Positions 25,670-50,662 of a DNA stretch of 64,000 bases are shown here, piece after piece. The stretch lies in contig NZ_AKVN02000001.1 of assembly GCF_000271485.2 (NCBI RefSeq), positions 1,244,001 through 1,308,000 of the forward strand, written 5' to 3'. A program made the position numbers and the translations under genes. Numbering within the stretch: the stretch's first letter is position 1; each line of letters opens with the position of its first letter. This DNA is from Pelosinus fermentans DSM 17108 (GTDB lineage: Bacteria > Bacillota > Negativicutes > DSM-13327). The notes under the pieces are model-generated. The model was not told the DNA's origin and did not search any database. It was given only the letters and a program-made list of their open reading frames with translations.

Positions 25670-25696
25670 TCTTATAGGCGAAGGTGGGGTAAATAA

Positions 25697-28657
25697 ATGC
25701 GACAGTTATTAAAGATTATTAATCAGGAAAACAAAAAGAATCCTCTGACAGATGAAGAAATTGCTGCACAATTAGGGATGGGAAGGAGTGATGTAGCCAA
25801 GCTCAGGCGATCACTGGGCATCGGAAACTCAAGACAGAGAATGAGAGAACTACTGGAAAAAGAGATTCATGTTTTATTAAACAAGTATCCTAATTTGTCG
25901 GAAAGGGCATTGACCCAAAAGTTAAATGAAAACGGTTTTGGTGTCTCCAGGCATATGGTTAGTGACTTATATCAGCAGATGAAAATACAAGGTGCCTTTT
26001 CCGCAGCAAAACCAGAATCGCCTAACAGTAGTGAGGTCAATGATCCGCCGGTGATACAAACGCAAACTGCTTTTGACGCTTTAATCGGGGCGCAAGGCAG
26101 TTTGCGGACGCAAGTAGAGCTGGCTAAGGCGGCCGTTTTTTATCCACATAAGGGGCTGCATACCTTAATTGCTGGGGCAACTGGTGTTGGAAAAAGTGAA
26201 TTGGCTTATTGTATGCACCGTTTTGCTTTGGAGTCTGGTACGAAACCAAGTGATACTCCTTTTGTGGTTTTTAACTGCGCTGATTATGCAGAGACGCCCC
26301 AGTTATTACTGGCTCAATTATTTGGTTATGTTAAAGGTGCTTTCACCGGTGCGGAAGTGGATAAAGAAGGATTAGTGGAAAAAGCCAATCAAGGGATTTT
26401 ATTTTTAGATGAAATTCACAGGCTGCCGCCGGAAGGACAAGAAATTCTTTATTACCTAATTGATAAAGGAAAGTTCCGGCGGCTGGGGGAAAGTGATACC
26501 TTCCGTAATGTAAGTTTGATGCTGATTGCTGCGACGACAGAAAATATCGAGTCCTTTCTGCTGCTGCCTTTCCGCCGTCGCATTCCAATGGTGATTGAGC
26601 TGCCAACCATTGCCCAGCGTCCTTTGGAAGAACGGTTTCAAATCATTGTAAGTTTTATTCGGGAGGAAGTCAGCCGTATTAAATTGACAATGAGGGTTTC
26701 GTATAACGCAGTGGTTGCCTTACTTATGTATGAATGTCATGGCAATATTGGTCAGTTGCGGTCAGATATACAGGTTGCCTGTGCCCGGGCTTTTCTGAAG
26801 AATATGGCACAAAAAGAAAAAATATTAAAGATCGAAATTAATGATTTAACCCATCAGGTTGTTAAAGGTTTGCTGCTTTTAAATGAGCAGCGTCCTATCA
26901 TAGAAAAAATTCTGCAGGGGGATCTGGAGATCTCCCCGACTGATGAACAAAGGGCACCATTAGTGGAACCCACGTATTTATTGCCGAATGAAGTATATCA
27001 GGAAATTGAAGACAATTATATTAAAATGGAGAATCAGGGAATCGACCTTGCGATTATCAATCGTGTCATCAGTGATGAACTTGAGGCTAAGGTACGGCAG
27101 CTGATTAAGCAGGCGCAAGGCAATAAGCAAAACCTGATTCGGCAGGATTTAGAAAAAATTGTGGGCGAAAAACTCGTCAATGCCGTTGATCGAATGATAA
27201 AGCTGGCTAGAACTCGGCTGCCAGATATTGATGATAGTTTGTTATATTGTTTGGCTACCCATTTAGCGGCCTCTTATGAACGCATCCGGATGAATAACAA
27301 GCTGATTGTCAATCCTCAATTTCAGAAGATGCAGACCGAATATCCGGCAGAGTACGAACTGGCAGGGAGAATGGCACAAATAGCCTCTTATTATCTTGGA
27401 ACAGACTTGCCGGAAGATGAGATTGCTTTTATTGCTATGTACTTAAAATCTTATGCTAAAAAAGATCATCTAAATGAAGTCCATGTGGGAGTTGTGGTAC
27501 TCACTCACGGACGGGTGGCCGAAGGAATGGTACAGGTCGCCAATCGACTGCTCGGCGTTGATTATGCTAAAGCCTTGGAAATGCCATTAGAGGAGAGATC
27601 CGAAGATGCACTGCAGCGGGCTATGCATATCGTGCGGCAGGCGGACAACGGCAAAGGGGTTCTAATGTTAGTGGATATGGGGTCTTTGGTGGGTTTCGGT
27701 AAGCTGATTACCGATAGCACCGGTATAGTAACCCGCATGGTAACTAGGGTCAATACACCGATGGTGATTGAAGCGGTACGCAAGGCATTGGCTCCGGATG
27801 CGGATATTGAGGAAATTGCTAACGCGCTGCACTGGGACAATTCGAACTATGAAACGGATGTATGCCATTTAAGCACGGTTCATAATTTGACGGATGCAAT
27901 TGTAACCATTTGCCTTACTGGTCAGGGAGCGGCAGAGTGGATGGCAAAAATGATTGCCGAATACATGCCGCAATGTTTGAAACAGATAGAGATCATTCCT
28001 ATGGGGGCTTTAGTGGAAGAAGACCTTCAGACTCGTTTAAGGCAAATCGGGCAGAATTATAATCTTCTTGCTGTGATAGGAACCTTGGGGACGGTGATAC
28101 CCGGCATTCCGTTTATTACCGCCAAAGAGATGGTAAAAGGGAACGGTTTGGAAAAATTAAAGAGAATTATACAATTGCGCGGCAGCTTAAATAAAGCAGG
28201 ATCGATTCATTCTGCGGCTGGAGGGTACTCTCAAAATGGATTAATCCGACCGGAACTCGTATTGCTGAACTGCTCCCATAAAAACAAAAATGAAGTTTTG
28301 AATACATTGGCTCAGACATTAGTTAGTCAGGGGCATGTACGGGAACAGTACATCGTATCCATTTATGAGCGTGAAGCATTGGCTCAAACCTTATTTCAGG
28401 ATGTGGCATTGCCCCACGGCAGTCCGGAATACATCCTGAGGCCAGCTATTGCAGTGATGACGCTTCAAGAGCCGATAGAGTGGGTTGATGGGTATCAAGT
28501 AGAGATTGTATTTATGCTGGCTCTCAACAATTATCAAAAAAATGAATTTAAAAAATTATATTCTTTGTTGAATGACCGCGAGCAGCTGATGAAAATGAAG
28601 CAATCGAAAAATATAGAACAATTTATGAGGGTGATTACAGATGGACAAATGTTTTGA
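25697..28657 (+). CDS. LevR-like sigma-54-dependent activator with PTS regulatory domains
   Basis: 986 residues, same architecture as 13243-16182: N-terminal helix-turn-helix segment, AAA+ domain with GATGVGKS (about 160), GAFTGA (about 215), ILFLDEIHRLPPEGQE (about 234), PRD (about 450-580), EIIA-Man-like domain with VVLTHGRVAEG (about 600), EIIB-Gat-like domain with ICLTGQGAA (about 736) and EIIA-2 domain with VALPHGSPEY (about 900). Overlaps the following EIIA gene by 17 bases. Here the regulator is the first gene of the PTS operon it should control. Confidence 0.93.
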   Translation: MRQLLKIINQENKKNPLTDEEIAAQLGMGRSDVAKLRRSLGIGNSRQRMRELLEKEIHVLLNKYPNLSERALTQKLNENGFGVSRHMVSDLYQQMKIQGAFSAAKPESPNSSEVNDPPVIQTQTAFDALIGAQGSLRTQVELAKAAVFYPHKGLHTLIAGATGVGKSELAYCMHRFALESGTKPSDTPFVVFNCADYAETPQLLLAQLFGYVKGAFTGAEVDKEGLVEKANQGILFLDEIHRLPPEGQEILYYLIDKGKFRRLGESDTFRNVSLMLIAATTENIESFLLLPFRRRIPMVIELPTIAQRPLEERFQIIVSFIREEVSRIKLTMRVSYNAVVALLMYECHGNIGQLRSDIQVACARAFLKNMAQKEKILKIEINDLTHQVVKGLLLLNEQRPIIEKILQGDLEISPTDEQRAPLVEPTYLLPNEVYQEIEDNYIKMENQGIDLAIINRVISDELEAKVRQLIKQAQGNKQNLIRQDLEKIVGEKLVNAVDRMIKLARTRLPDIDDSLLYCLATHLAASYERIRMNNKLIVNPQFQKMQTEYPAEYELAGRMAQIASYYLGTDLPEDEIAFIAMYLKSYAKKDHLNEVHVGVVVLTHGRVAEGMVQVANRLLGVDYAKALEMPLEERSEDALQRAMHIVRQADNGKGVLMLVDMGSLVGFGKLITDSTGIVTRMVTRVNTPMVIEAVRKALAPDADIEEIANALHWDNSNYETDVCHLSTVHNLTDAIVTICLTGQGAAEWMAKMIAEYMPQCLKQIEIIPMGALVEEDLQTRLRQIGQNYNLLAVIGTLGTVIPGIPFITAKEMVKGNGLEKLKRIIQLRGSLNKAGSIHSAAGGYSQNGLIRPELVLLNCSHKNKNEVLNTLAQTLVSQGHVREQYIVSIYEREALAQTLFQDVALPHGSPEYILRPAIAVMTLQEPIEWVDGYQVEIVFMLALNNYQKNEFKKLYSLLNDREQLMKMKQSKNIEQFMRVITDGQMF

Positions 28658-29108
28658 ATTTGACGAGAAAGTGATAGCCGTTGGCTTGGAAGTCAGTGAC
28701 AGAGAGGATGCATTGCGGCACATGGCACAAATGCTGCACGACGCGGGATATGTCCGCGATACCTACAGCGAGGCTATTATCCGGCGTGAGCGCACTTTTC
28801 CTACCGGTTTGCCAACAGGAGAGAATGGAGTGGCAATTCCACATACTGACATATGTCATGTCATCGCTCCGATGATTGCCGTCGGAATTCTTAAAACACC
28901 TGTCGAGTTTCAAAACATGGGTGACATTGAGGATGCAATACATGTAAAAATTATGTTTATGCTGGCGATGAATAATTGTGACAATCAAGTGAAATTATTG
29001 TCTGAATTGATGCAGATCATTCAGGATCAGTACTTGTTGAAGAAACTGTGCATAGCACAATCGGTAACAGATATTGGCCGGCTGCTGAAGGATAAAATTC
29101 ACTTTTAG
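28641..29108 (+). CDS. PTS EIIA component, fructose/galactitol type
   Basis: 155 residues; phospho-histidine in VAIPHTDICHV (about residue 70), TGLPTGENG and FMLAMNNCDNQ match the EIIA at 10043. The start codon lies within the end of the regulator gene, indicating translational coupling. Feeds phosphate to the EIIB that starts 33 bases downstream. Confidence 0.9.
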   Translation: MDKCFEFDEKVIAVGLEVSDREDALRHMAQMLHDAGYVRDTYSEAIIRRERTFPTGLPTGENGVAIPHTDICHVIAPMIAVGILKTPVEFQNMGDIEDAIHVKIMFMLAMNNCDNQVKLLSELMQIIQDQYLLKKLCIAQSVTDIGRLLKDKIHF

Positions 29109-29141
29109 ATTGTTTGAAAATGGGTGGAGGAGGTGGAAAAC

Positions 29142-29444
29142 ATGAAAACATTTCGCATACTTACCATTTGTGGTACAGGGATTGCTACTTCAACCGTTGC
29201 TGCAGAAAAATGCAAACAATATTTGACTAAACGTGGTTTGAAGGTAGAAGTAGTTGAATGCAAAGCGGTAGAAGCGTCTGGGAAAATCCCGGTATATTCT
29301 CCCCATGTGGTAGTCGCAACGACCCTGGTTAACGATAGCGCATTGCATGGCACCAAGAAATTTAGCGGATTACCGTTTTTGACGGGCGTGGGTATGGATA
29401 AGTTAGCTGATGAGATTGCTGCTTATTTGCAGAGTTTAGAGTAG
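29142..29444 (+). CDS. PTS EIIB component, galactitol type
   Basis: 100 residues. Phosphocysteine loop ICGTGIATSTVAAEKC at about residues 8-23. GGAGGAGG (29126-29133) lies 8 bases before this ATG, so the longer frame from 29124 is rejected. Paralogue of 10758-11051. Confidence 0.9.
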   Translation: MKTFRILTICGTGIATSTVAAEKCKQYLTKRGLKVEVVECKAVEASGKIPVYSPHVVVATTLVNDSALHGTKKFSGLPFLTGVGMDKLADEIAAYLQSLE

Positions 29445-29529
29445 TATCTCACTACTCTAAACTCTTAGGATGTGATTTTTGCAGAACCTTATAGATTATA
29501 AAACAAAAAAATATGGGGAGGAAAGTTTT

Positions 29530-30780
29530 GTGCAAATAATAAATTTTATTCTTGATCTGGGACCTACTGTCATGATGCCGATCATTATCATGCTTTTAGG
29601 ATTGCTTTTTCGGCAGGGATTTCCTAGGGCTTTTCGTTCCGGTTTAACGATCGGAATGGGGTTTGCCGGAATATTCCTGGTTATAAGTATGCTGACCAGC
29701 AATTTATCGCCAGCAACCCAGGCTATGGTTACAAACTGGGGGTTGCACCTTGATGTAATGGATGTCGGCTGGCCGATCGCGGCGGCGATCAGCTTTGGCA
29801 CACCCATTGTTCCAGCCGTTTTTATTATGGGTCTGTTCATTAATGTTTTGATGTTGTCTATGAACTGGACCAAAACGATGGATATTGATTTATGGAATTA
29901 CTGGCATTTTATCTTTTCTGGTGCGTTGATTATGTATCTGACCAACAGTGCTATTTTGGGCATTATTGCATCCGGCATTACCATTGTCATTGTCCTTAAA
30001 CTGGCTGACTGGACGCAGCCGTATGTGGCAAAAGTCTTTGATATGCCCGGCATATCATTACCACATACTGAGTCCATATCCTGGGCTCCTCTTGGAATAT
30101 TGTTAAATAAAGTAATCGATAAAATTCCCGGTATCAATAAGATTGATATTAATCCGGAAAAGATTCAAGAACGGTTTGGCGTTTTTGGAGAGCCTATGTT
30201 AATTGGTTTGGTTCTTGGTGCATTTATTGGCGTCTTGGCAGGATATACTGTCGAAGGTGTTGTTAAGTTAAGCGTGAATATGGCAGCTGTACTTTTCCTG
30301 ATGCCGCGAATGGTTCGTATTTTAATGGAAGGTCTATTACCTTTGTCTGAAAGCGGGCGTGAATATCTCAGTAATCGGTTTCCTGGCAAAGAAGTATTTA
30401 TCGGCTTGGATGCTGCTGTTGTTATTGGTCACCCTTCGGTAATGGCTGTTTGCATTTTGATGATTCCGATTACCCTGCTGTTGGCTGCTGTTCTCCCAGG
30501 TAACAGAATCTTACCATTTACCGACTTGGCTGGGTTACCCTTCTGCTTGCTTTGGGCTGTAGCCCCTTCAAAAGGAAATGTATTTAGGGGCCTCATTATT
30601 AGTACAATTTTTATGGTTGGTATATTATACATAGCAACCGATTTGGCACTAGTAACTACCTTAATGGCAAAACAAGTAAACTTCCCATTCCCTGAAGGTA
30701 CCGCTGCCATTTCTTCTCTCGATGGGGGGGCCCATCTGATTCCTTATATTATATTTAAAATCGTTGAAATTTTCCATTAA
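29530..30780 (+). CDS. PTS EIIC permease, galactitol (GatC) family
   Basis: 416 residues from a GTG codon with GGGGAGG (29515-29521) 8 bases upstream; an earlier in-frame TTG at 29479 lacks a site. Blocks LGPTVMMPIIIMLLGLLF, MDVGWPIAAAISFGTP, NYWHFIFSGALIMYLT and FIGLDAAVVIGHPSVMAVC mirror those of the EIIC at 11069. Unlike the first PTS operon no aldolase follows; the polyol phosphate may be used by the dehydrogenases further downstream. Confidence 0.9.
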   Translation: MQIINFILDLGPTVMMPIIIMLLGLLFRQGFPRAFRSGLTIGMGFAGIFLVISMLTSNLSPATQAMVTNWGLHLDVMDVGWPIAAAISFGTPIVPAVFIMGLFINVLMLSMNWTKTMDIDLWNYWHFIFSGALIMYLTNSAILGIIASGITIVIVLKLADWTQPYVAKVFDMPGISLPHTESISWAPLGILLNKVIDKIPGINKIDINPEKIQERFGVFGEPMLIGLVLGAFIGVLAGYTVEGVVKLSVNMAAVLFLMPRMVRILMEGLLPLSESGREYLSNRFPGKEVFIGLDAAVVIGHPSVMAVCILMIPITLLLAAVLPGNRILPFTDLAGLPFCLLWAVAPSKGNVFRGLIISTIFMVGILYIATDLALVTTLMAKQVNFPFPEGTAAISSLDGGAHLIPYIIFKIVEIFH

Positions 30781-31362: not shown

Positions 31363-32655
31363 ATGCTGGGATTAAATTACAAATTAGAAGAACTAGAAAA
31401 GAACGGTAAGAATATATTGACAGGTATCATTGGAGCCGGTCAGATGGGAAAAGGTATGATCAGCCAGATGACATTGATGAAGGGCATGACGCCGGCAGTC
31501 GTTGTGGATATTAATATAGAGAATGCAAAAAAAGCATTTTTGCATGCAGGAATTGATGAAGGAAATATTAAATATGCTAAGACCGCTGCCGAAGCAGATG
31601 CGTTTATTAAAGATGGTAAGTCTGTTATTGCGGATCATAGTGATGCTGCCACCAAATCGGAATTGATTCAAGTTGTTATTGATGCAACAGGAGTGACAGA
31701 AGTAGGAGCAAAAATTGCTTTAGATACGATACTTGGCAAGAAGCATATTGTAATGCTGAATGCAGAAGCAGATGTTGTGATTGGACCCATCCTAAAGAAG
31801 TTCGCTGATGCGGCGGGTGTTATTTATACAGGGGCTGCTGGAGATGAGCCAGGGGCAGTGAAAGAATTATATGACTTTGCCGTAGCGTCAGGTTTTGAGG
31901 TTAGAGTGATCGGAAAAGGTAAAAATAACGTGCTGGATTTTGATTGTAACCCAGATACTGTTTTGGAAGAAGCTACTAGAAGGGGTGTTAGTCCTCACAT
32001 GCTGGCATCATTTAAAGAAGGAACGAAAACAATGGTTGAGCTGGCATGTATGTCTAATGCTACGGGTTACATTTGTGATGTAAGAGGGGGGCATGGCATC
32101 AGTGGTGAGGTAAAAGATCTGCCGCAATTGCTTAGCTTAAAAGAAGAAAATGGAGTATTAAATCAATATGGCGTTGTAGATTTCGTGAATGGCATTGCTC
32201 CTGGAGTATTTGTAATTGTGACAAGTAAACTGCCTGAAGTAAGAGCAGAAATGGAATATGTAAGTATGGGGAAAGGACCTAACTATATATTGTATCGTCC
32301 CTATCATTTGTGCAGCTTAGAAACTCCTTTGTCAGCAGCCAAAGCTGTATTGGATCATCAAGCCACAATTGCGCCAATGGGAGGTTTGGTATCAGAAGTG
32401 ATAACCGTTGCTAAAAAGGATCTAAAGGCAGGTGATCACTTAGATGGTATTGGTGGATATACAGTCTATGGAACGATTGAAAGATATGAAATAGCCAAAG
32501 AAATGAACGCTCTGCCTGTCGGTCTAGTCAACAAAGATACAATCTTAAAACAAGATGTTAAGAAAGGCGATCTTATTACCTATGACATGGTGCAGCTGCG
32601 CGAGGATTCTTTCATTCTCCAAATGAGAAGGCTTCAAGATAAATTATTTGCGTAA
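31363..32655 (+). CDS. COG4091-type NAD(P)-dependent oxidoreductase with C-terminal SAF domain
   Basis: 430 residues. N-terminal Rossmann fold ILTGIIGAGQMGKGMISQM, then a homoserine-dehydrogenase-like middle (MLNAEADVVIGPILKKFA, YTGAAGDEPGAV) and a C-terminal SAF domain (VAKKDLKAGDHLDGIGGYTV to ITYDMVQL). This family is called predicted homoserine dehydrogenase, but some members (DRL type) act as 1-deoxyxylulose-5-phosphate reductoisomerase. Next to a glucitol-type PTS and its regulator it more likely oxidises or rearranges a sugar or polyol phosphate, perhaps standing in for SrlD. Exact reaction unknown. Confidence 0.82.
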   Translation: MLGLNYKLEELEKNGKNILTGIIGAGQMGKGMISQMTLMKGMTPAVVVDINIENAKKAFLHAGIDEGNIKYAKTAAEADAFIKDGKSVIADHSDAATKSELIQVVIDATGVTEVGAKIALDTILGKKHIVMLNAEADVVIGPILKKFADAAGVIYTGAAGDEPGAVKELYDFAVASGFEVRVIGKGKNNVLDFDCNPDTVLEEATRRGVSPHMLASFKEGTKTMVELACMSNATGYICDVRGGHGISGEVKDLPQLLSLKEENGVLNQYGVVDFVNGIAPGVFVIVTSKLPEVRAEMEYVSMGKGPNYILYRPYHLCSLETPLSAAKAVLDHQATIAPMGGLVSEVITVAKKDLKAGDHLDGIGGYTVYGTIERYEIAKEMNALPVGLVNKDTILKQDVKKGDLITYDMVQLREDSFILQMRRLQDKLFA

Positions 32656-32848
32656 GAAATTCATCCATTGTTGATTTATTTTTAATATATACGGTAATGC
32701 TCTCCTGAAAAAAATATTCGTTAGTATCAATTATCATTAGCTTATCCAAGGATTGAAGAAGTTTTTATTGTCAATTTGTGGCTAATACTATATTATTTTT
32801 GTGAACTGGATAAACAGTATACTAACAACATCGTTGGGGGGAGCAAAT

Positions 32849-33811
32849 ATGCAAAAGATAGTAGATGATAGTCGCTTAATTGTAAAATGTTGTAAATTGT
32901 ATTATGAAGAGTACCATACGCAAAATGAAATTAGTAAGATCTTGGGAGTTTCAAGGCCTACTATTTCAAGATTATTAAAAGAGGGGCGAGATTTAGGTAT
33001 TGTAAAGATTGAGATCATTAACCCTTTTGAACGTGATTTTGAGGAACTAGAGAGACGAACTGAAAAGAGGTTTCAGATTAGAGAAGTGCTCATCATTGAA
33101 GATGAGGCTGATGAAGTAATGCAAAAAAGACAGCTGGCAAAAGCTGCTGCCAAATATTTGCGAAGGATTGTAAAAGATGGCGATACCCTTGGAATTTCAA
33201 TGGGAACCACTCTTAAGGCAATTGCAGAACATATCAATAATAACGAAAAACGCAAATTAACCTTCATTCCTTTGATTGGAGGGTTAGGGCAGTCTGAAAT
33301 TGATATTCATCCCAATGATATTGTTATGGGATTTGCACAAGCTTTTGGTGGAAATTTTAAATTGCTGCATGCACCTGCTGTAGTCAGTAACGAGAATATA
33401 AAAAAAGAAATGCTGAAGGAGCAGAGCATTAAAGAGGTTATTGATCATTCTAAATTATGTAATATCGGCATTGTAGGAATTGGTTCGCCCACAGACATGG
33501 GTTCAACTATGATGACTTCAGGATATTTTAATGAAGATGATACGAAAGAATTCGCCAAGTTAGGTGTAGTAGGAGATATTTGCCTGCAATTTTATGATAT
33601 AAATGGCAATGCAGATCAATTTGACTTTAACAAGCGGGTGGTAGGAATTAATTTAACGGATTTGAAAGAAATTGATACAGTGATTGGTGTAGCTTGTGGC
33701 GAGAAAAAAGTGAATGCGATTGTTGGTGCTTTAAATAGTAAAATTATCGATGTTTTAATTACGAACTATAGTAATGCAGTGGCTATTAATAATTATAAAA
33801 ATAATAAATAA
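32849..33811 (+). CDS. SorC family transcriptional regulator
   Basis: 320 residues. Helix-turn-helix (YHTQNEISKILGVSRPTISR, about 18-45), SorC sugar-phosphate domain (GISMGTTLKAIAEHI about 115, FIPLIGGLGQSEID about 140, GVACGEKKVNAIVGALN about 285). GGGGGGAG precedes this ATG by 6 bases; a frame extending upstream to 32801 lacks a site. Placed between the SAF oxidoreductase and gutM, as expected for the regulator of a glucitol-type PTS operon. Confidence 0.88.
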   Translation: MQKIVDDSRLIVKCCKLYYEEYHTQNEISKILGVSRPTISRLLKEGRDLGIVKIEIINPFERDFEELERRTEKRFQIREVLIIEDEADEVMQKRQLAKAAAKYLRRIVKDGDTLGISMGTTLKAIAEHINNNEKRKLTFIPLIGGLGQSEIDIHPNDIVMGFAQAFGGNFKLLHAPAVVSNENIKKEMLKEQSIKEVIDHSKLCNIGIVGIGSPTDMGSTMMTSGYFNEDDTKEFAKLGVVGDICLQFYDINGNADQFDFNKRVVGINLTDLKEIDTVIGVACGEKKVNAIVGALNSKIIDVLITNYSNAVAINNYKNNK

Positions 33812-33995
33812 GAAGGACAAAACGGGGGAGAATTTTCATCATTTTTCAAGTGGACTAACAGAAGAATTTAAGTTAATAAAGAAATCATTTTGATGATGAA
33901 ATTCTATTTTCCCTTGAATTATTATTTGAAAAGTTCGAATTATCCAACAAGTAAAACCAGACTACAATCGTTTAATGAGTAAGAGGAGGAAAAGC

Positions 33996-34370
33996 ATGGA
34001 GAAATTACTACTGGTTGCCTTCTTGTTTTATGTCCTGCAAATGATTTTAACGTATTTTCAAGTAAAAGATTTTCGAAGTAATGTTGATGAACTAAGAAAG
34101 AAAGGCGTTATTGGCATCGGGTCTAAAAAAAGGAAGCTGTCTGCCGGGACAATTGTTATTCTTGTCAGCAATGAATTCGGAGACATTATAGAAGGCCGAA
34201 TGATGCAAGGGTTTAGTATCTTAGCCAGATTCAAGAATCTTAAAGATCTTAATGGATTCAATGTCGGGGAATTAAAAGAAAGAATGCAAAGAGAAAGTAG
34301 TAAAGATACAGCAACGCTGGATGCACTAAAGCAGATTGAAAATCAATTAGTAAAGCTTGAGGCTATGTAA
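33996..34370 (+). CDS. gutM: glucitol operon activator protein GutM/SrlM
   Basis: 124 residues, one N-terminal membrane helix (LLLVAFLFYVLQMILTYF) and the GutM core (GVIGIGSKKRKLSAGTIVIL, then GRMMQGFSILARFKNL). AGGAGG lies 6 bases before this ATG. GutM proteins accompany srlAEB genes and act with the operon regulator. Start of the gutM-srlA-srlE-srlB run. Confidence 0.85.
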   Translation: MEKLLLVAFLFYVLQMILTYFQVKDFRSNVDELRKKGVIGIGSKKRKLSAGTIVILVSNEFGDIIEGRMMQGFSILARFKNLKDLNGFNVGELKERMQRESSKDTATLDALKQIENQLVKLEAM

Positions 34371-34471
34371 TTGATTTGCCTATATGAAGCCATAGAAAGG
34401 AAGGGGGCGTTAGATTAATCGTTTAGATGGGGAAAATTGTACGAGGAAAAAGTAAAGGGAGGTAAAAATTC

Positions 34472-35008
34472 ATGCTGGTATTAGCTCACTTAGCTCAAAG
34501 TTTCATTGCACTATTTCAAAAAGGTGGAGAAGTCTTTGTAGGCTTAGTTACGGGGATTCTTCCGACACTGATTGTCCTGATTACAGCGGTAAATTCATTG
34601 ATTGGTTTAATTGGTGAAGAACGAGTCAATAAGATTGCCAAGGCTGCCACGAAAAATATTATTTTACGTTACACAATATTTCCCATTATGGCTGTATTTT
34701 TTCTAACGAATCCAATTTGCTACAGTTTTGGTAGGTTTTTGCCAGAAAAGTATAAACCTGCTTTCATGGATGCGTCCATATCTTTTGTACATCCGATTAC
34801 TGGTTTGTTCCCCCATGCTAATGCTGCTGAATTATTTGTATGGGTAGGTATTTCCAGCGGTATCACAGCTTTGGGTCTTCCATTAGGTGAGTTGGCAGTC
34901 CGCTATTTTATTACCGGTGTGATTGTAATCTTAATTAGAGGTATTTTAACGGAAAGAATGACCATTTATATGATGAATCGCAAAAATAATCAGTCATTAG
35001 GGGCATAA
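34472..35008 (+). CDS. srlA: PTS glucitol/sorbitol-type EIIC2 component
   Basis: 178 residues with four to five hydrophobic segments. SrlA blocks: [40 protein letters not shown] and [20 protein letters not shown]. Forms the membrane channel with the C domain of SrlE. Preceded by GGGAGG. Confidence 0.9.
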
Positions 35009-35045
35009 GTGGACGAAGAGTAATGATATAGGAGGCGGGATTGTT

Positions 35046-36017
35046 ATGAGTAATGCTGTTCGAATTGAGAAAGGTCCAGGTGGCTTTGGTGGTCCTTTGA
35101 TTATAAGAACCACAGAAACAAGAAATAAAGTAGTATGTATTACCGGTGGTGATATACATCCTGTTGCAGTTAAACTTGCAGAGATGCTGGGCGCAGAGCT
35201 GGTAAACGGTTTCAAAACAGGGGTTCCTGATGATCAAATTGCTGTAGCTGTTGTCGATTGCGGCGGTACTGCGCGCTGCGGTGTGTATCCGAAGAAAAGA
35301 ATTTACACTGTGAATGTATTGCCTGTAGGAAAGTCCGGACCCCTGGCTCAATTTATTACAGAAGACATTTATGTATCTGGTGTCAAGGAATCAAGCCTAA
35401 CTTTATTTGAAGGGGAATATACTCCTCCTGAACCTTCAATCGCGCCAGCAGCTACGCAGCAAAGAGCGCAGGCAGCTCCGGCAGAAAAGGGAAATATCCT
35501 GGCTCGATTTGGTAAAGCTGTTGGTGGCGTAGTGGGGATTTTCTTTCAATCCGGGCGTCATACAATTAATACAGTTATGACCAGCATACTGCCCTTTATG
35601 GCTTTCGTAAGTATGATTATTGGTATCATTTTGCAGTCTGGTCTGGGAAATATTGTTGCAAATGTCGTTTCTCCTTACGCTGGGAGCCTTCCTGGATTAT
35701 TGATTATATCCGTAATATGTTCCCTGCCAGTGCTGTCGCCAATGTTAGGACCAGGTGCAGTTATTGCTCAGGTAGTGGGTGTTTTGATTGGTGTTGAAAT
35801 TGGTGCAGGTCATATTCCTCCGCAGTTTGCTCTTCCAGCCTTATTTGCGATCAATCCCCAGGTTGGCTGCGACTTCTTGCCAGTGGGCTTGAGCTTGGGT
35901 GAGGCAGAACCAGAAACCATTGAACTTGGCGTGCCTGTTATCCTCATGTCAAGATTGGTGACAGGTCCTTTATCAGTAGTGATTGCTTATTTCATGGGCG
36001 TAGGATTATTTAGCTAA
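35046..36017 (+). CDS. srlE: PTS glucitol/sorbitol-type EIIBC component
   Basis: 323 residues. N-terminal [20 protein letters not shown], then the phosphocysteine motif [17 protein letters not shown] (about 72-88) and [20 protein letters not shown]; an alanine/proline linker (about 125-150); C-terminal membrane domain ([59 protein letters not shown]). Full family length. Converts the imported polyol to its phosphate. Confidence 0.92.
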
Positions 36018-36087
36018 ACGCAGAGAAATATAGCTTCTCTTATGGTTGTTTCCCGAGGATACACATTATGAAATGAGAGGGAAGTGA

Positions 36088-36453
36088 ATGATGAAATATG
36101 AAGTTGTAGTGACGAGCATAGGAGATATGGCTACCGAATTAATGGAATCTACTGGAGATCTTATTATTTTCGATACATGTCCTTTAGATGGTTTAGAAGA
36201 AATTTCGATTATGCATACAACGGGAGAAATTAAAAGACCAATTCAAGTTGGCGATAGAGTAACCTTTGGAAAAGCACAGTATACGATTACGGCTATCGGG
36301 GATGAGGCACTTAAAACGCTAGAGGAATTGGGACACTGCACATTTAAATTCACTGGCAGCAATACAGTCGAACTGCCAGGGCAGATTGAATTAAGGGGCG
36401 AAGGTCATCCAGAGATCTCTCTGAATGATATTATTCGAATCGAAGGCAATTAA
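36088..36453 (+). CDS. srlB: PTS glucitol/sorbitol-type EIIA component
   Basis: 121 residues; phospho-histidine H43 in EISIMHTTGE, with VGDRVTFGKAQYTITAIGD and the closing GQIELRGEGHPEI typical of SrlB. Followed by a terminator. The usual next gene srlD (sorbitol-6-phosphate dehydrogenase, an SDR protein) is not present anywhere in the window. Confidence 0.9.
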   Translation: MMKYEVVVTSIGDMATELMESTGDLIIFDTCPLDGLEEISIMHTTGEIKRPIQVGDRVTFGKAQYTITAIGDEALKTLEELGHCTFKFTGSNTVELPGQIELRGEGHPEISLNDIIRIEGN

Positions 36454-36463
36454 AAAGGTAAGA

Positions 36464-36508
36464 AAATTGCTATTTGTCTCCTTAAAGAACAAATAGCAAT
36501 TTTTTTAA
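36464..36508 (+). terminator. Rho-independent terminator
   Basis: AAATTGCTATTTGT (36464-36477) pairs perfectly with ACAAATAGCAATTT (36489-36502), followed by T5. Ends the gutM-srlAEB message. Confidence 0.9.
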
Positions 36509-36628
36509 CACGATGTGCTAGTCCGTAGCAAGATTCGTAAAATACGGTTTATAACCTTAAGAAATAAATAGGAATTAGAAAAATCAAAAAAAATAAGTCT
36601 TCTTTATAAAAATATGAAATAGGATGTG

Positions 36629-37999
36629 ATGGCAATGAAATTGACATTAGATACGATCGGCAGATTAGAAAGTAATGATTTTTTAAACGCCAAATTGGAA
36701 TGCCAATGTGGAAAACCACATAGTATCAATATTGATAAAGTGATTATTGGAAAGGACGCTCTTAATCAAGTGCCTGATGTAGTAAGAACGTTAGGTGCGA
36801 AAAAAGTGTTGCTTGTTGCAGATACAAATACTTACGAAGTAGCTGGCAAGAAAGTAGCTTCATTGCTGGCAGAACATCATTTGGCTTATAAGTCGTATGT
36901 GTATAAAGTGACTCGAGATTTAGTGCCAGATGAAGAGGCTGTTGGAAAATTGCTGCTGCAAGTCGAAAAAAATACAGATCTTATTGTTACGGTGGGAGCG
37001 GGAACGTTGAATGATATTGTAAAATTCATCAGCCGCAGAACCAATATCCCATCTATCGTGGTAGCGACTGCACCTTCTATGGATGGATATGCTTCTGACA
37101 GCTCCGCGTTAATTATTGATAATCTAAAAACGAGCGTGGAATCTTCCTATCCTAAAGTTATTATTGGTGATACTGAGATTTTAAAGAAAGCACCCATGCG
37201 GATGATCTTAGCAGGTCTTGGGGATATGATCGGAAAATATTCTGCACTAAGCGATTGGCAGGTAAGCCGCATCGTAAATAAAGAGTATTATTGTGATGTC
37301 ACTTCTAGAATTTCAAGGGATGCTATTCAAAAATGTGTTGATAATATTGATGGTGTTAAGAATCGAGAGGATATTGCAATTGAAAATGTTATGGATGGTT
37401 TAGTTCGCACGGGAATTGCGATGAGTTTTGTAGGAAATTCTCGTCCGGCATCGGGGGCGGAACATCATATTTCTCACTTTTGGGAAATGAAGTTCTTATT
37501 TGAAGGTAAAGAAGCTTTGCTGCATGGTACGAAGGTAGGCTTAACTAGTATTATTGTAGCCAGATTGTATGAAATGTTAATAGAAAAGCAAGTCGATTTT
37601 GAAGAAGCTGTGGCCAAGGCTCGTATTTTTGATGAAAAAGCGTGGAGAAAATCGATAAGTGAACTTTATGGAAAGGCTGCACCTGGCATTTTGTCTATGA
37701 GCGAAAAGGATGGCAGAAATTCCATAGAAGCTAGAATTTCTAGAATTGAAGTAATTAAGGAAAATTTCCCGCAGATTATTGAAATTGCCAAGGCGGCAGA
37801 AAGAGCAAACCGAGTTGAAAGCTTAATGAAGAGTGCTGGAGCACCCATTAAGCCGGAGGAAGTTGGTGTTGACCAAAGAACGGTGCTGGACAGCGTTTTG
37901 GTAGCAAAAGAAGTACGTCCTCGTTATACCATTCTTAACTTATTATCGGACTTGGGACTATTAGAAGAGTTCACCAGCGATATTAAAAAATATATCTGA
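36629..37999 (+). CDS. sn-glycerol-1-phosphate dehydrogenase-like protein (AraM/EgsA family)
   Basis: 456 residues. Iron-containing-dehydrogenase fold: NAD motif VTVGAGTLNDIVKF (about 122-135), APSMDGYASDSSAL (about 148-161), metal ligands in GLGDMIGKYSALSDW, AEHHISHFWE and LLHGTKVGLTS. Start uncertain: GTG 36626, ATG 36629 and ATG 36635 are all in frame behind AGGA at 36621. Related enzymes interconvert dihydroxyacetone phosphate and glycerol-1-phosphate; in this context it may oxidise a longer polyol phosphate at C2. Followed by an AraL-like phosphatase, the pair seen in Bacillus ara operons. Confidence 0.85.
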   Translation: MAMKLTLDTIGRLESNDFLNAKLECQCGKPHSINIDKVIIGKDALNQVPDVVRTLGAKKVLLVADTNTYEVAGKKVASLLAEHHLAYKSYVYKVTRDLVPDEEAVGKLLLQVEKNTDLIVTVGAGTLNDIVKFISRRTNIPSIVVATAPSMDGYASDSSALIIDNLKTSVESSYPKVIIGDTEILKKAPMRMILAGLGDMIGKYSALSDWQVSRIVNKEYYCDVTSRISRDAIQKCVDNIDGVKNREDIAIENVMDGLVRTGIAMSFVGNSRPASGAEHHISHFWEMKFLFEGKEALLHGTKVGLTSIIVARLYEMLIEKQVDFEEAVAKARIFDEKAWRKSISELYGKAAPGILSMSEKDGRNSIEARISRIEVIKENFPQIIEIAKAAERANRVESLMKSAGAPIKPEEVGVDQRTVLDSVLVAKEVRPRYTILNLLSDLGLLEEFTSDIKKYI

Positions 38000-38018
38000 A
38001 TAGGAAGGAGTCATGTTT

Positions 38019-38846
38019 ATGGAGCCAGTAATAAATACGACACAGCAGCAAGAGATATTAAGAAAAATCAAATGTTTCGTTATGGATTTAGATGGTACTG
38101 TATATTTGGGGAAACGAATTTTAGACGGCGCTATAGACTTTTTGCACACGCTGGAAAAGAATAAAATTAAATTTAAATTTTTTACGAACAACTCTTCCAA
38201 GAATACCAAAGTATATGTGGACCGTATTCGTAATATGGGGTACCACGTAGAAGAAGATATGATGCTTATTTCCAATCATGTTATTATCAATTATCTGAAA
38301 AAACATGCGGCAGATCAAACTGTCTTTGTGCTGGGCAATGAATATCTGCAAAATGATTTTAAGGAAGCTGGGATCGTTTTAGTAGATGAGAATCCGGATA
38401 TTGTGGTGGTCGGCTTTGATACTTCTCTGGCGTATGATAATCTAACGAAAGCATGTACCTTTATTCGAAATGGGGCGAGGTTCTTAGCTGTTAATCCTGA
38501 TTTTAATTGTCCGATAGAAGGCGGATATATTCCAGACTGCGGAGCAATATGCGCATTGATTACGGCATCTACTGGTGTCAAACCTGAGTATTTTGGTAAG
38601 CCTACAGCTCATACGCTGCAGTATATATTAGAGAATACTGGCTGCAAAGAAGAGGAGATTGCGATTGTTGGAGATCGACTATATACAGATATTGCTCTTG
38701 GAAAAGGAAATAATGTGACAACGATTCTAGTACTGTCTGGTGAAAGTCAATTAGTGGACATTCCAGGGAGTGAGGTAAAGCCTACTCTTGTATTCCCTTC
38801 ATTAAAGCAAGTGAAGGAAGCATTAGAAGAAACTGCTAACGTATAA
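38019..38846 (+). CDS. HAD-IIA phosphatase, NagD/AraL-like
   Basis: 275 residues. Motif I CFVMDLDGTVYLGKRIL, motif II FFTNNSSKN, cap domain of the NagD type, motif IV IVGDRLYTDIALGKGNN. AAGGAG ends 8 bases before this ATG; the ATG at 38013 is too close. Probably cotranscribed with the AraM-like gene 19 bases upstream. Broad-specificity sugar-phosphate phosphatase, perhaps detoxifying accumulated polyol phosphates. Confidence 0.88.
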   Translation: MEPVINTTQQQEILRKIKCFVMDLDGTVYLGKRILDGAIDFLHTLEKNKIKFKFFTNNSSKNTKVYVDRIRNMGYHVEEDMMLISNHVIINYLKKHAADQTVFVLGNEYLQNDFKEAGIVLVDENPDIVVVGFDTSLAYDNLTKACTFIRNGARFLAVNPDFNCPIEGGYIPDCGAICALITASTGVKPEYFGKPTAHTLQYILENTGCKEEEIAIVGDRLYTDIALGKGNNVTTILVLSGESQLVDIPGSEVKPTLVFPSLKQVKEALEETANV

Positions 38847-39058: not shown

Positions 39059-39739
39059 ATGAGCAGATATAAAGGGATTATCTTTGATTTGGACGGCACT
39101 TTACTGGATACTCTGAGTGATATTGCCAATAGTGTGAACGAAGTTCTTGCCAGCTATGGGTATCCGGCGCATTCAAAAGAAGAATATCGAATCAAAATTG
39201 GTAAGGGTTTTCGCAACCTGCTTGAACAAAGTATGCCAGAGGATACAGAACCGGCAGTCATTGAGGAAGGGGTAGAAAAATTTATCAAAGCGTATCATGA
39301 AAACTACAAGAAGGAAACAAAGCCATATGGCGGAATTGTTTCTTTGCTGAAAGCGCTCAATAATAAGGGGATGCCAATAGCCGTAAATTCTAACAAGCGT
39401 AATGATTATACCAATAATCTACTGCGGTATCTGTTTCCTGGTATTGTTTTCAGCGCTATTTATGGCGAGCGTCCCGGTTTTGCTAAAAAACCCGATCCGC
39501 AAGCTGCCTTAGAAATTGCCAAGCAAATGCAGCTTGATCCCAAAGAAGTATTATATGTCGGTGATTCTAAGACAGATATGATTACGGCGCAAAATGCCGG
39601 TATGGATAGTATCGGCGTGTTGTGGGGGTTTCGCGATGAGAGAGAGTTAAGAAATCATAATGCCACTTATGTCGTAAAACGACCGCAGGGTATTTATAAT
39701 ATTGCATTTTGGGGATCGGCCGCGAATTCTATGGAATAG
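39059..39739 (+). CDS. HAD-IA phosphatase, phosphoglycolate phosphatase-like
   Basis: 226 residues. Motif I GIIFDLDGTLLDTLSDI, helical cap, motif II AVNSNKRND, motif III/IV KKPDPQAALEIAKQM and VLYVGDSKTDMITAQNAGMD. GGGGAAAGGTG precedes the start. Gph-like; could hydrolyse 2-phosphoglycolate or sugar phosphates. Separate from the previous HAD gene by 212 bases with repeats, so probably its own unit. Confidence 0.85.
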   Translation: MSRYKGIIFDLDGTLLDTLSDIANSVNEVLASYGYPAHSKEEYRIKIGKGFRNLLEQSMPEDTEPAVIEEGVEKFIKAYHENYKKETKPYGGIVSLLKALNNKGMPIAVNSNKRNDYTNNLLRYLFPGIVFSAIYGERPGFAKKPDPQAALEIAKQMQLDPKEVLYVGDSKTDMITAQNAGMDSIGVLWGFRDERELRNHNATYVVKRPQGIYNIAFWGSAANSME

Positions 39740-39868: not shown

Positions 39869-40540
39869 TTAATCACTCATAATTTTTTGACCATAAGTTT
39901 TTTGCCAGTCTTCCGTGAACGTATTAACACTCCAATCTGTCAGCGGGTGGGAGAATAATTTGCTAAATACATCTTCATTGACCGTTACTGCCTGGGCTCC
40001 AGCTAAGCAGATTTTTTGAATTTGCTCCGTATTTTTAAAGCTTGCTGCCAGAACTTGGGTCTGGAAATGATACGTTTGAAAGATGGTAACAATATCGGCT
40101 ACTACGTTTACTCCGTTGCCAGAAATGTTATCAATTCGATTTACATAAGGAGCAACATAACTGGCTCCTGCTTTAGCCGCCATTAATGCCTGCTGGGGGG
40201 TGAACACTGCTGTAGCGGTGACTTTAATGTTTCGTTCCGTAAGGTATTTTATTGCTTTGTAGCCTTCAGGAATAACGGGAATTTTTACATAAATATTTCC
40301 TTGAAAAGTATTATGTAAGAACTCTGCCTCTTCGATAATTTTTTCGGCATCTTGATTGACCACTTGTGCATGCAATGTTTTTTCATCACTTAAAATACAA
40401 CGAATTTCTTGTAAAACATCTACATAGTCTATCTTTTGTTTCGCTAAAATACTGGGGTTAGTTGTAACACCGTCAATGACATAGGTGTCATTGGTCTTTC
40501 TTATAAAATCAATATCGGCAGTATCCAGTAAGATTTTCAT
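39869..40540 (-). CDS. transaldolase / fructose-6-phosphate aldolase (Fsa/TalC type)
   Basis: 223 residues, the short class I aldolase form. DGVTTNPSILAKQKIDY (about 22-38), Schiff-base lysine in IYVKIPVIPEGYKAIKYL (about 85-102), TATAVFTPQQALMAAKAGASYVAPYVNRI. AGGAGG precedes the start codon. Second gene of a leftward rpiB-tal operon. Transfers dihydroxyacetone units between sugar phosphates. Paralogue at 43818. Confidence 0.9.
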   Translation of the reverse strand: MKILLDTADIDFIRKTNDTYVIDGVTTNPSILAKQKIDYVDVLQEIRCILSDEKTLHAQVVNQDAEKIIEEAEFLHNTFQGNIYVKIPVIPEGYKAIKYLTERNIKVTATAVFTPQQALMAAKAGASYVAPYVNRIDNISGNGVNVVADIVTIFQTYHFQTQVLAASFKNTEQIQKICLAGAQAVTVNEDVFSKLFSHPLTDWSVNTFTEDWQKTYGQKIMSD

Positions 40541-40572
40541 TAGCTATACCTCCTGAAATATAATATAAAATA

Positions 40573-40603
40573 CTAACGAGGAGCTTTTGATGCTCCTCGC
40601 TAG
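40573..40603 (-). other. hairpin between rpiB and transaldolase genes
   Basis: CTAACGAGGAGC (40573-40584) and GCTCCTCGCTAG (40592-40603) pair with one mismatch and a 7-base loop. No T run follows; likely an intercistronic processing or stability element. Confidence 0.4.
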
Positions 40604-40626
40604 AAACGTTATAACACTAAAAAATA

Positions 40627-41079
40627 CTAGCCTCTATATTTCTTGTCAATATCAGCTACCAAATTAATTTTGGGCGTTGAAGATCCAGGCGTGAATTCAG
40701 AAGCAAGCCAGGTTTTGGCGATCACTTTAGCTAATTCGGGACCGATGACCCTGGCGCCCATTGTAATGATTTGAGCATTGTTGCTCTTAATGGATCTTTC
40801 AGCAGAAAAAGTATCATGACATAAGGCTGCAAAAATACCAGGGACTTTATTAGCAGTAATGCACATACCGATACCGGTTCCACATAGCAGCATGCCTCTA
40901 GCAGATTCACCCTTTTTAACGCTCTCAGCAACTGTTTCAGCAATATTAGGATAAAAGGTTGCATCATCGGCAGAAGGAATTCCGAAATCTCTTACTTCAT
41001 GTCCTAGCTCTTCCATATATTTTTTAAGGATATTTTTTAATTCAAAAGCGGCGTTATCACAGCCAATTGCAATTTTCAT
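40627..41079 (-). CDS. rpiB: ribose-5-phosphate isomerase B family
   Basis: 150 residues. IAIGCDNAAFELKNILKKYM at the start and the active-site region LLCGTGIGMCITANKVPGIF (about 66-85) with the catalytic cysteine. RpiB isomerises ribose-5-phosphate and ribulose-5-phosphate, and paralogues isomerise allose, galactose or erythrulose phosphates. With transaldolase and split transketolase nearby it belongs to the pentose/tetrose phosphate part of this region. Confidence 0.92.
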   Translation of the reverse strand: MKIAIGCDNAAFELKNILKKYMEELGHEVRDFGIPSADDATFYPNIAETVAESVKKGESARGMLLCGTGIGMCITANKVPGIFAALCHDTFSAERSIKSNNAQIITMGARVIGPELAKVIAKTWLASEFTPGSSTPKINLVADIDKKYRG

Positions 41080-41173
41080 TTGTTTTTCACCTCATAAATT
41101 ATTTCTTATTATTCAAACTGTTGTTAAGAAAGCTGCCTCCTTTCATTAAAATTCTTGACTTTATTTATGAAAG

Positions 41174-41185
41174 TGATCTAAATCA
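41174..41185. promoter_or_regulatory. CRP/FNR-like dyad in the rpiB upstream gap
   Basis: TGAT-CTAA-ATCA, flanked by a wider pair AAAGTGAT (41170-41177) and ATCACTTT (41195-41202). Candidate CRP/FNR-type or other operator about 95 bases before the rpiB start. The gap 41080-41552 otherwise holds A-rich DNA, a TATAAT at 41470-41475 with no good -35 for the next gene, and no supported gene. Confidence 0.35.
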
Positions 41186-41552
41186 TTAGCGTATATCACT
41201 TTGTTTTTTCCTTTTGGAAAAGGTATTCAGTTCTTTTTGAAAAGAGGAAGGTATTTAGCGGAATATTTTACTCTAATGGATTATAATATTTTCTTTTTCT
41301 TTCTATTACTTATTATTTGTTTGCTTTTGAGTTCATTATATGAAAAAAAGAAACAATCGTCAATAGGTATTGATTATATTTTATATTGAAAAATAAGATA
41401 CTTTTTATTAAACATAGTAAAAATGAGTAAAAAATAGAAAAAAAGAAACAAAAAGAAAATTAAAAGTGGTATAATTAAAGCAAATATAGAATCGTTACAA
41501 TGAAAAAATGCAATGAGCTGAAAGTGGTGAAAACAAAAATAAAGGATGGGAG

Positions 41553-42602
41553 ATGTCTAGTATGATGAAAGCAGCAGTATTTTATGGTCCACAAAATGTA
41601 AAATTTGAGAATCGAGAAGTACCTAATATCAACAAAGGCGATATTCTTATCCGAGTAAAATATTGTGCAATTTGTGGTACTGATGTAAGGATTTATAACT
41701 TTGGTCAGGCAAATGTAACTCCTCCAAGGATTACAGGTCACGAGCTGACGGGGATCATAGAAAATATCGGGAGTGAAGTGGAAGATTATCAAGTTGGGGA
41801 TAAGGTGCTAGTAGTTCCTCAAATGACTTGCGGCAAATGTCATTACTGTTTGCAAGGCAAAAGCAATCTTTGTGAAGAAGTGTTATTGTTTGGCTATTCT
41901 CTGGATGGTGGCTTTGCTGAATATATAAAAATACCTGCACAAGCTGTAAATCGAGGAAATGTGATAAAGTTGGATGATACTGCAGATCTGGTGGATGCTA
42001 CTCTTACAGAACCTTTATCTTGTGTTATTAATGGTCAAGAACATTTGCAGATTGGCATTGGTGATGAAGTTTTGGTCATTGGGGCGGGAGCAATTGGTGC
42101 TATGCATGTAGCCTTGGCTAAAGCAAAAGGGGCCGCAAAAATTATTCTTGCAGATGTAGCACTGGATCGGCTGGAACTTGCGGGAAAATGTGGAGCTGAT
42201 TATCTTATTAATTCAAAAAGTGTAGATCTTATGCAAGAAGTAATGTCTCTTACCAATGGTAAAGGGGTCGATGTGGCAATTACTGCTTGCTCAGTGCCTA
42301 TTGCCCAGTCACAAGGGCTGCAACTTCTTAAAAAAGGCGGAAGACTTAGCTTATTTGCAGGTTTGCCTAAAGATCATGCTATAAATCCTTTAGATATGAA
42401 TCTTGTCCATTATAGAGAAATATCTGTTTATGGAGCCTATGCTTCAACCATACCTCAGCATATGACGGCCTATCAGTTATTGGCTAAGAAAATTGTGGAT
42501 GGGAAGAAAATCATTACGAATGTCTTGCCAATGGAACAGTTGGTTGAGGGATTCGGTATGGTGAAAAAGGGCGAAGGGTTAAAAATTGTCGTAAAATTAT
42601 AA
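41553..42602 (+). CDS. zinc-dependent MDR polyol dehydrogenase
   Basis: 349 residues. Catalytic zinc motif CAICGTDVRIY (about 37-47) and GHELTG (about 65), structural zinc CGKCHYCLQGKSNLC (about 94-108), Rossmann VLVIGAGAIGAMHVALAKAKG (about 171-191). Similar to L-iditol, ribitol or arabitol-phosphate dehydrogenases. Three nearby ATGs (41553, 41562, 41565); GGATGGGAG fits the first. Upstream A-rich tract and DeoR gene suggest sugar-phosphate control. Candidate for oxidising a PTS-imported polyol phosphate. Confidence 0.88.
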   Translation: MSSMMKAAVFYGPQNVKFENREVPNINKGDILIRVKYCAICGTDVRIYNFGQANVTPPRITGHELTGIIENIGSEVEDYQVGDKVLVVPQMTCGKCHYCLQGKSNLCEEVLLFGYSLDGGFAEYIKIPAQAVNRGNVIKLDDTADLVDATLTEPLSCVINGQEHLQIGIGDEVLVIGAGAIGAMHVALAKAKGAAKIILADVALDRLELAGKCGADYLINSKSVDLMQEVMSLTNGKGVDVAITACSVPIAQSQGLQLLKKGGRLSLFAGLPKDHAINPLDMNLVHYREISVYGAYASTIPQHMTAYQLLAKKIVDGKKIITNVLPMEQLVEGFGMVKKGEGLKIVVKL

Positions 42603-42603
42603 A

Positions 42604-42644
42604 AAAATCACTGTTTGCTCGATGAAGAGCAAACAGTGATTTTT
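42604..42644. terminator. bidirectional terminator
   Basis: AAAATCACTGTTTGCTC (42604-42620) pairs with GAGCAAACAGTGATTTT (42627-42643), A-run on the left, T-run on the right. Serves the converging dehydrogenase and DeoR genes. Confidence 0.92.
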
Positions 42645-42660
42645 TTATTCATTGACCTTA

Positions 42661-43425: not shown

Positions 43426-43667
43426 AGTTTCTCCTTGTTGATCGTTTATCATGTTCTTGCTTTATAAGCAAAGTATATAAAATATAGTCTGGCAAATGAT
43501 TACGGTTAAGTAAATTCCCTAAAAGTTGTATATTTACAATTACAGTTATCATAGCAAAAACTAAGAAAACAATCAATACTAGATTCATTAAAAGAAAAAA
43601 TAATAAAAAATAAAAAGAAAAAGCAAGAAAAAAGATAGTAAAAATAAGATAAAAGATAATAAAATAG

Positions 43668-43695
43668 TTGACAAAGTAAAGTCTAGTGATAAAAT
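43668..43695 (+). promoter_or_regulatory. promoter of the transaldolase-transketolase operon, with A-rich tract
   Basis: TTGACA (43668-43673), 16-base spacer, TAAAAT (43690-43695). The preceding 100 bases (about 43560-43665) are purine-rich with repeated AATAAAAAATAAAAAG, AGAAAAAAGATAG and ATAAAAGATAATAAAAT units, possible DeoR operator repeats. This covers the 390-base gap; no gene seen in it. Confidence 0.6.
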
Positions 43696-43817
43696 ATAAG
43701 TAAGAACTTGCATTGCTAAATATTGTGGTTCATGATATTTAGAAATGCTGTACAATATCATTTATAATGTGTATCTTAACTCAGATTGGAAAAAAATATG
43801 TAAAAGGGGAGATTTTG

Positions 43818-44465: not shown

Positions 44466-44547
44466 TATAGTAAAAGGTTGAAAGGTGAAATACGGCCTTA
44501 ATTGGCCGTATCTTATCTAATGACAATCGGGAGGTATCGTAAATAGA

Positions 44548-45378: not shown

Positions 45379-45380
45379 AA

Positions 45381-50640: not shown

Positions 50641-50662
50641 GAAGATGGATTTGGAGGACACT

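Follow-up and report, generated by a model that had tools for sequence, protein, structure and literature searches.

A 64,000-nt stretch of the Pelosinus fermentans DSM 17108 genome (C1:1244001-1308000 of a 5.03 Mb genome; hereafter the window) carries an operon in which a SAF/COG4091-type oxidoreductase, termed DRL, is joined to a glucitol-type phosphotransferase system (PTS). With a probability of approximately 0.5, this operon serves to take in 2-C-methyl-D-erythritol (ME) as a food source. The PTS would take up ME and deliver it as ME 4-phosphate (MEP), DRL would oxidise MEP to 1-deoxy-D-xylulose 5-phosphate (DXP), that is, run an isoprenoid enzyme in reverse, and an E1/E2/E3 complex encoded elsewhere in the window (3276-7964) would convert DXP and CoA to acetyl-CoA and glyceraldehyde 3-phosphate. 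The AraM-like protein, the HAD phosphatases, RpiB and the transketolase set would be accessory and may act on a further polyol, for example erythritol. That ME is the substrate, that flux runs in this direction and that the complex acts on DXP are all inferences.

The DRL-PTS operon and its oxidoreductase

The operon lies on the forward strand and opens with DRL (31363-32655), which matches PF21135 (DRL_cat) at 213.5 bits against a cut-off of 27. A SorC-family regulator follows (32801-33811, +; PF04198, 248.5 bits), whose best match (61%) is the SorC adjoining DRL in locus L060. The next genes encode GutM (33975-34370, +; PF06923, 101.5 bits, cut-off 25), the EIIC component SrlA (34472-35008, +; PF03608 and NF049923, 231.3 bits, cut-off 150), the EIIBC component SrlE (35046-36017, +; NF049924, 470 bits, cut-off 400) and the EIIA component SrlB (36088-36453, +; PF03829, 105.6 bits, cut-off 25); by profile scores, the glucitol-type PTS domain set of SrlA, SrlE and SrlB is complete. 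Narrower models score under their cut-offs for GutM (NF007592, 53.5 against 148), SrlE (TIGR00825, 395.2 against 458.7) and SrlB. Three accessory genes complete the arrangement: an AraM-like iron-containing alcohol dehydrogenase (36626-37999, +; PF13685, 112.7 bits, cut-off 28; best PDB match 9h4x, a glycerol-1-phosphate dehydrogenase), a HAD-IIA phosphatase (38013-38846, +; TIGR01460, 143.3 bits, over the cut-off) and, just beyond the segment singled out by the first-pass annotation, a HAD-IA phosphatase (39059-39739, +; PF13419, 150.2 bits). The gene content that this annotation had read from the letters (gutM-srlA-srlE-srlB with SorC, a SAF oxidoreductase, an AraM-like protein and HAD phosphatases) is confirmed by the open reading frames (ORFs) and family matches.

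DRL is present at 98-100% identity in five of the ten genomes of the family, the P. fermentans genome included. The gene order from DRL to HAD-IA is intact in G400, G401 and G402, where HAD-IA likewise comes after HAD-IIA, and in G406 it is intact up to SrlE, where the contig ends. Given this recurrence, the arrangement of the cluster is not due to chance.

No SDR or SrlD is found among the ORFs of the DRL-PTS cluster. The absence of SrlD that had been noted earlier holds at this operon and not for the genome as a whole, which has three EII-GUT sites: the window operon, L007 and L008. L008 is a sorbitol operon in the order SorC-SrlD-GutM-SrlA-SrlE-SrlB; a distant srlD thus exists, but it is served by a PTS of its own, which strengthens the non-sorbitol reading of the window operon. 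The SrlE tree points the same way, because the SrlD-linked proteins, that of E. coli included, form one clade (nine rows, eight SrlD-linked plus L148; support 100), and the window SrlE and the DRL-linked SrlEs lie outside it, in agreement with the original proposal of a non-sorbitol polyol route. From 115 loci, 72 rows entered the SrlE tree and 69 the SrlA tree, the rest being duplicates or lacking a long stop-free match; L151 is absent from the SrlE rows. Among the 12 DRL-less SrlA sites, SrlD is detected by similarity at eight (L008, L146, L147 and L150-L154) and is not found by similarity at L148, L149, L155 and L156. Sorbitol is rejected as the substrate on three grounds: the operon has no SrlD, a separate SrlD operon exists, and the PTS falls outside the SrlD clade. 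As proposed earlier, the polyol is probably phosphorylated on entry, and the resulting phosphate is probably the substrate of the SAF protein. For Listeria, PMC11176438 lists a SAF-domain protein among sorbitol genes that are reduced in a ccpC mutant and takes them to serve sorbitol use.

The SAF protein resembles the alternative DXP reductoisomerase known as DXR-II. Its PDB matches are two entries of the Brucella DRL (3upy, E 3.4e-98, residues 3-428), and both the DRL catalytic domain and a whole-length likeness to this characterised protein are present. The DXR-II clade, with its ligand and diagnostic residues, is defined in PMC3847144, and K191, K193, T229, R320, G121 and H250 are all retained in the window DRL. 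In a set of 97 DRLs (103 minus six duplicates), K191, K193, T229, R320 and G121 are invariant (97/97), and H250 is present in 80. The same paper places Clostridioides difficile 630 and Eubacterium limosum in DXR-II; the window DRL shares a 17-row clade with the C. difficile (L065) and Eubacterium callanderi (L100) proteins, in a tree built without DLO sequences. PMC3847144 also attributes to Finegoldia a DXR-II activity but no other enzyme of the MEP or mevalonate pathways, a hint of another role. A homoserine dehydrogenase identity is not favoured, as the residues and the linkage point to DXR-II.

The distribution of DXR-I suggests what the linked DRLs act on. In a sample of 398 genomes, DRL is found at E 1e-60 in 36; no more than four DRL candidates were scored in most genomes, and weaker second copies may be missed. 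DXR-I is present alongside DRL in 20 of the 36 and was not found in the other 16, 15 of which have IspG (all except G244). Five of these genomes (G037, G176, G250, G341 and G381) have IspG, no DXR-I found and a single DRL at this threshold, which is linked to both PTS and E1 genes; it follows that this DRL should be the DXR of those five cells. G199 is a similar case, with a lone DRL in a TIM-like/YjbQ setting. As the linked DRL is the only candidate DXR found in five IspG genomes, it is probable that linked DRLs truly work on DXP and MEP.

The same counts could be taken to mean that the operon is an isoprenoid supply module, in which isoprenoid synthesis is fed either with MEP that the PTS salvages from ME or with DXP that the complex produces and DRL reduces. 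E. coli does make DXP with a mutant, not the wild-type, AceE (PMC3424233). However, the P. fermentans genome has both DXR-I and IspG, and the PTS, the SorC control and the full E1-E2-E3 set would fit catabolism better, which makes this explanation quite unlikely. Because DXR-I and IspG are both present, a housekeeping DXR role of the window DRL is likewise unlikely.

If DRL handles DXP and MEP, a PTS that yields MEP would import ME, which leads back to ME as the food. DXP is an acyloin, like acetoin, as would suit cleavage by an acyloin-type complex, and the DXP formed through mutant AceE in E. coli counts on this side as well. Going by the title of a paper by Testa, Cornish and Poulter from 2004, the Salmonella sorbitol PTS reportedly transports ME. 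Dxr is listed as reversible in PMC13001223, and plants contain ME and its glucosides (PMC11192765). Neither ME catabolism nor a pathway joining DXR-II to a PTS was found described in the CC-licensed PMC literature, which is a weak negative. The earlier suggestion of an undescribed polyol pathway stands to that extent, with ME as the better-supported substrate, and acetyl-CoA and glyceraldehyde-3-phosphate as the better-supported products, in place of those suggested then.

Partner modules of DRL and the E1-E2-E3 complex

The neighbourhoods of DRL were surveyed with an alignment of 19 DRLs as the query, which gave 80 named loci, the best 80 of at least 405 relatives and therefore leaning towards window-like DRLs, plus 20 stretches from the 398-genome sample. 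PTS genes adjoin DRL in 58 of the 80 named loci. The most frequent partner module, here module A, is a 2-oxo-acid/acyloin dehydrogenase complex of the acetoin/pyruvate-dehydrogenase type, present in 25/80 (E1alpha/E1beta; E2 in 23 and E3 in 17). Module B, a TIM-like/YjbQ set, is present in 17 loci (TIM-like or YjbQ), with a class II aldolase in 13. The two modules never occur together (0/80), the 58 PTS-linked loci divide into 24 with A, 16 with B and 18 with neither, and three changes are needed to place the A/B label on the DRL tree. In the 398 genomes, DRL lies within 10 kb at 25 of 37 SrlA sites, and E1alpha lies within 15 kb at 16 of these 25 in contrast to none of the 12 without DRL (Fisher p 2.1e-4, which is a guide only, because SrlA sites share descent). 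An erythrose-4-phosphate product, as first proposed, would not need an E1-type complex.

Module B loci such as L061 (L061:11501-13583), L093, L100 and others hold a class II aldolase, a TIM-like isomerase and YjbQ beside the PTS and DRL. One guess at their chemistry is that DXP is isomerised to a ketose-1-phosphate, which is cleaved to dihydroxyacetone phosphate (DHAP) and acetaldehyde. SDR matches (27-36% to SrlD) occur in 4/80 named loci. A clade of DRLs without PTS genes was also observed (L075, L081, L091, L092, L116, L117, L121 and L127), whose members often lie between a flavoprotein-like gene and an ORF of approximately 1034 aa that resembles a tRNA synthetase. TalC is near DRL in six of the 80 loci and is not favoured as a partner; in some of them it is perhaps a housekeeping neighbour, as in the order tal-murA-glpX-rho.

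The complex of the window consists of E1alpha (3276-4241, +; TIGR03182, 367.8 bits, under the cut-off of 393.85), E1beta (4261-5241, +; NF006667, 418.7 bits, over the cut-off, and placed by a tree), E2 (5234-6547, +; acyltransferase models, best 327.1 bits, under the cut-off) and a dihydrolipoyl dehydrogenase-like E3 (6582-7964, +), which is named by eye and resembles the E3 of module A loci. Two genes on the reverse strand are probable parts of the system. The SorC-family regulator beside the complex (1821-2768, -) has its best match (43%) in the SorC of L136, a locus with DRL, PTS and module A, and a small cysteine-rich protein (1197-1643, -) shares approximately 30% identity with homologues beside DRL or E1 elsewhere, which fall in 11 module A loci, no module B locus and four others. 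Directly after the complex lies a 509-aa ORF (8083-9612) that appears by eye to be a LipB-LipA fusion.

The window E1 complex is akin to the DRL-linked E1s. The 14 closest of 136 other E1alphas in the sample are all from DRL-bearing genomes, 12 of them within 15 kb of DRL (rank test on closeness, p 5.7e-10, again a guide only, since the sites share descent). In the E1alpha tree (43 of 45 rows after removal of duplicates), the window protein groups with DRL-linked L062, L064, L068 and L072 and with unlinked L160 at a support of 94. A second complex of the same genome, L144, stands beside a sigma-54-type regulator (AcoR by eye) and groups with copies that have a similar regulator (support 100); the window E1alpha lies outside this AcoR-linked clade. 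The E1beta tree (42 of 44 rows) is less sharp, the nearest rows by path being the DRL-linked L095 and L130, followed by the unlinked L158. Additionally, the same five of the ten family genomes carry both DRL and the window-type E1, approximately 13 to 40 kb apart on one contig in four of them.

Several observations weigh against ME catabolism by these genes. The complex is not adjacent to DRL in the window and lies 28 kb upstream, the E1 models cannot tell pyruvate, acetoin and DXP apart as substrates, and the co-occurrence of DRL and E1 in five family genomes may reflect shared ancestry, as the AcoR-type E1 tracks the same genomes. Eight of the 18 PTS-linked loci without either module have full 10-kb flanks, 22 of the 80 named loci have no PTS, and no module of either kind is present within 10 kb at L060, the closest DRL locus. 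The sister PTS of the window, at L149, is accompanied by AraM and not by DRL. In Salmonella, moreover, MEP is made by an ATP-dependent kinase and not by a PTS, according to PMC3994034.

A broader proposal, for which the odds fall somewhat short of even, is that ME catabolism is widespread. A PTS would form MEP, DXR-II in reverse would form DXP, and either module A or module B would complete the route, the former by acyloin cleavage to acetyl-CoA and glyceraldehyde-3-phosphate and the latter by isomerisation followed by an aldolase step, which may yield DHAP and acetaldehyde. DXR-II would then have begun as a food enzyme and, in some lineages, been recruited as the sole DXR for isoprenoids; its scattered distribution and its co-occurrence with DXR-I would both be accounted for. 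If so, what is taken to be the committing step towards isoprenoids becomes a reversible catabolic reaction, DXR-II gains a function in genomes that already hold DXR-I (20/36 of the DRL genomes checked), and bacteria can be named that feed on ME and its glucosides, plant metabolites for whose catabolism the literature search found no route.

A possible AraM branch and the flanking genes

The AraM-like protein scores under the cut-off of the glycerol-1-phosphate dehydrogenase equivalog (NF002022, 232.1 bits against 413), and a role as that enzyme is rejected on this score. The stretch around the sister PTS L149 holds AraM, HAD-IIA, TktAB, a gat EIIC and a GpsA-like gene, and neither DRL nor SrlD; because AraM accompanies this PTS without DRL, the window PTS may carry a second polyol, for example erythritol, processed by AraM, RpiB and transketolase. 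An AraM-like gene with a nearby HAD-IIA is also present at the transport loci L149, L166, L167 and L169. More generally, AraM-like dehydrogenases of approximately 455 aa stand beside several kinds of sugar-transport genes (L166, L167, L169 and L172-L175), including gat-type PTSs and, by eye, mannose-type PTSs and arabinose genes.

In the tetritol route built on this protein, a tetritol, for example erythritol, would enter as the 4-phosphate and be oxidised next to the phosphate by AraM and/or at C1 by DRL, and RpiB with a TIM-like isomerase would lead to erythrose-4-phosphate for TalC and TktAB. Erythritol catabolism is known to include a route for tetrulose phosphates with TIM-like and RpiB-like enzymes, and L061 combines DRL, a TIM-like gene, RpiB, AraM and a PTS. 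AraM follows SrlB in G400, G401 and G402 as in the window, and at L149 it stands beside the sister PTS with TktAB and HAD-IIA. However, AraM adjoins DRL in just one of the 80 named loci (L061), no TIM-like gene is seen in the window, the rest of the genome not having been searched for one, and the E1-E2-E3 complex, the DXR-II residues and the genomes in which a linked DRL is the sole DXR found are left unexplained. The tetritol route as the whole account appears unlikely, and a tetritol or pentitol route to erythrose-4-phosphate by the SAF and AraM proteins, which the first-pass annotation preferred, gives way to ME in view of the DXR-II residues and of the linked DRL being the only DXR found in five IspG genomes. 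A tetritol branch through AraM, RpiB and transketolase may still operate in this operon.

A further alternative keeps the chemistry and changes the polyol, DRL converting for example the phosphate of a branched pentitol (apiitol) to xylulose-5-phosphate, or acting on a linear pentitol phosphate, with transketolase to follow. The second DRL operon of the genome, L007 (L007:2479-10397; C1:2868478-2876396), has the order SorC-GutM-SrlA-SrlE-SrlB-DRL-transketolase-phosphofructokinase, in which the transketolase is full-length and the last two genes are named by eye, and transketolase-like genes occur in 4/80 named loci. The L007 DRL is 56% identical to the window DRL, falls in a module B-rich clade and is 93% identical to a Propionispora DRL (L083). 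To our knowledge, there is no precedent for an acyloin-type complex that acts on xylulose-5-phosphate, and the linked DRLs seem to serve as DXR; this alternative is the least probable of those considered.

Downstream of the operon, a set on mixed strands (39869-46349) comprises TalC (-), RpiB (-), an MDR dehydrogenase (+), DeoR (-), TalC (+), TktA (+) and TktB (+), of which TalC, RpiB, DeoR and Tkt are named by eye. The transketolase at its far end is a split gene (TktA and TktB). This pentose-phosphate set is not a core part of the ME system and is possibly used by the AraM branch. Upstream of DRL, a Gat-type PTS, a LevR-type regulator and a GpsA-like dehydrogenase (24322-30780) match L149 in part; these genes are not core parts, since in G400 none of them stands between LevR2 and DRL. 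Elsewhere in the window, a hexuronate-type cluster (50639-58316: GntR, mannonate dehydratase-like, fructuronate reductase-like, a transporter, UxaC-like and a sugar kinase) and a NifH-like ORF (61205-62913) are recognised by eye.

Comparison with known systems

The sorbitol operon of E. coli, srlAEBD-gutM, shares SrlA, SrlE, SrlB and GutM with the window operon, which differs in having no SrlD, in a PTS outside the SrlD-linked clade and in SorC as the regulator, whereas the SrlR of E. coli is of the DeoR type. With the acetoin/pyruvate dehydrogenase complexes, the window shares the set of E1alpha, E1beta, E2 and E3. Unlike acetoin dehydrogenase, however, the window copy has a SorC-type and not an AcoR-type regulator, and its E1alpha groups with DRL-linked ones.

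The AraL-AraM pair of B. subtilis, an AraM-like dehydrogenase beside a HAD-IIA phosphatase, resembles the corresponding pair in the window, but the window AraM-like protein is under the equivalog cut-off and lies inside a PTS operon. Brucella-type erythritol catabolism offers a further likeness in the RpiB-like isomerase near the window operon and the TIM-like gene of L061; the window differs in that a PTS takes the place of a kinase and no TIM-like gene is seen. The DXR-II/DRL of Brucella (3upy; PMC3847144) is like the window DRL in whole length, catalytic domain and named ligand residues, whereas the window protein is encoded in a PTS operon, in a genome that also has DXR-I, and its proposed direction is from MEP to DXP.

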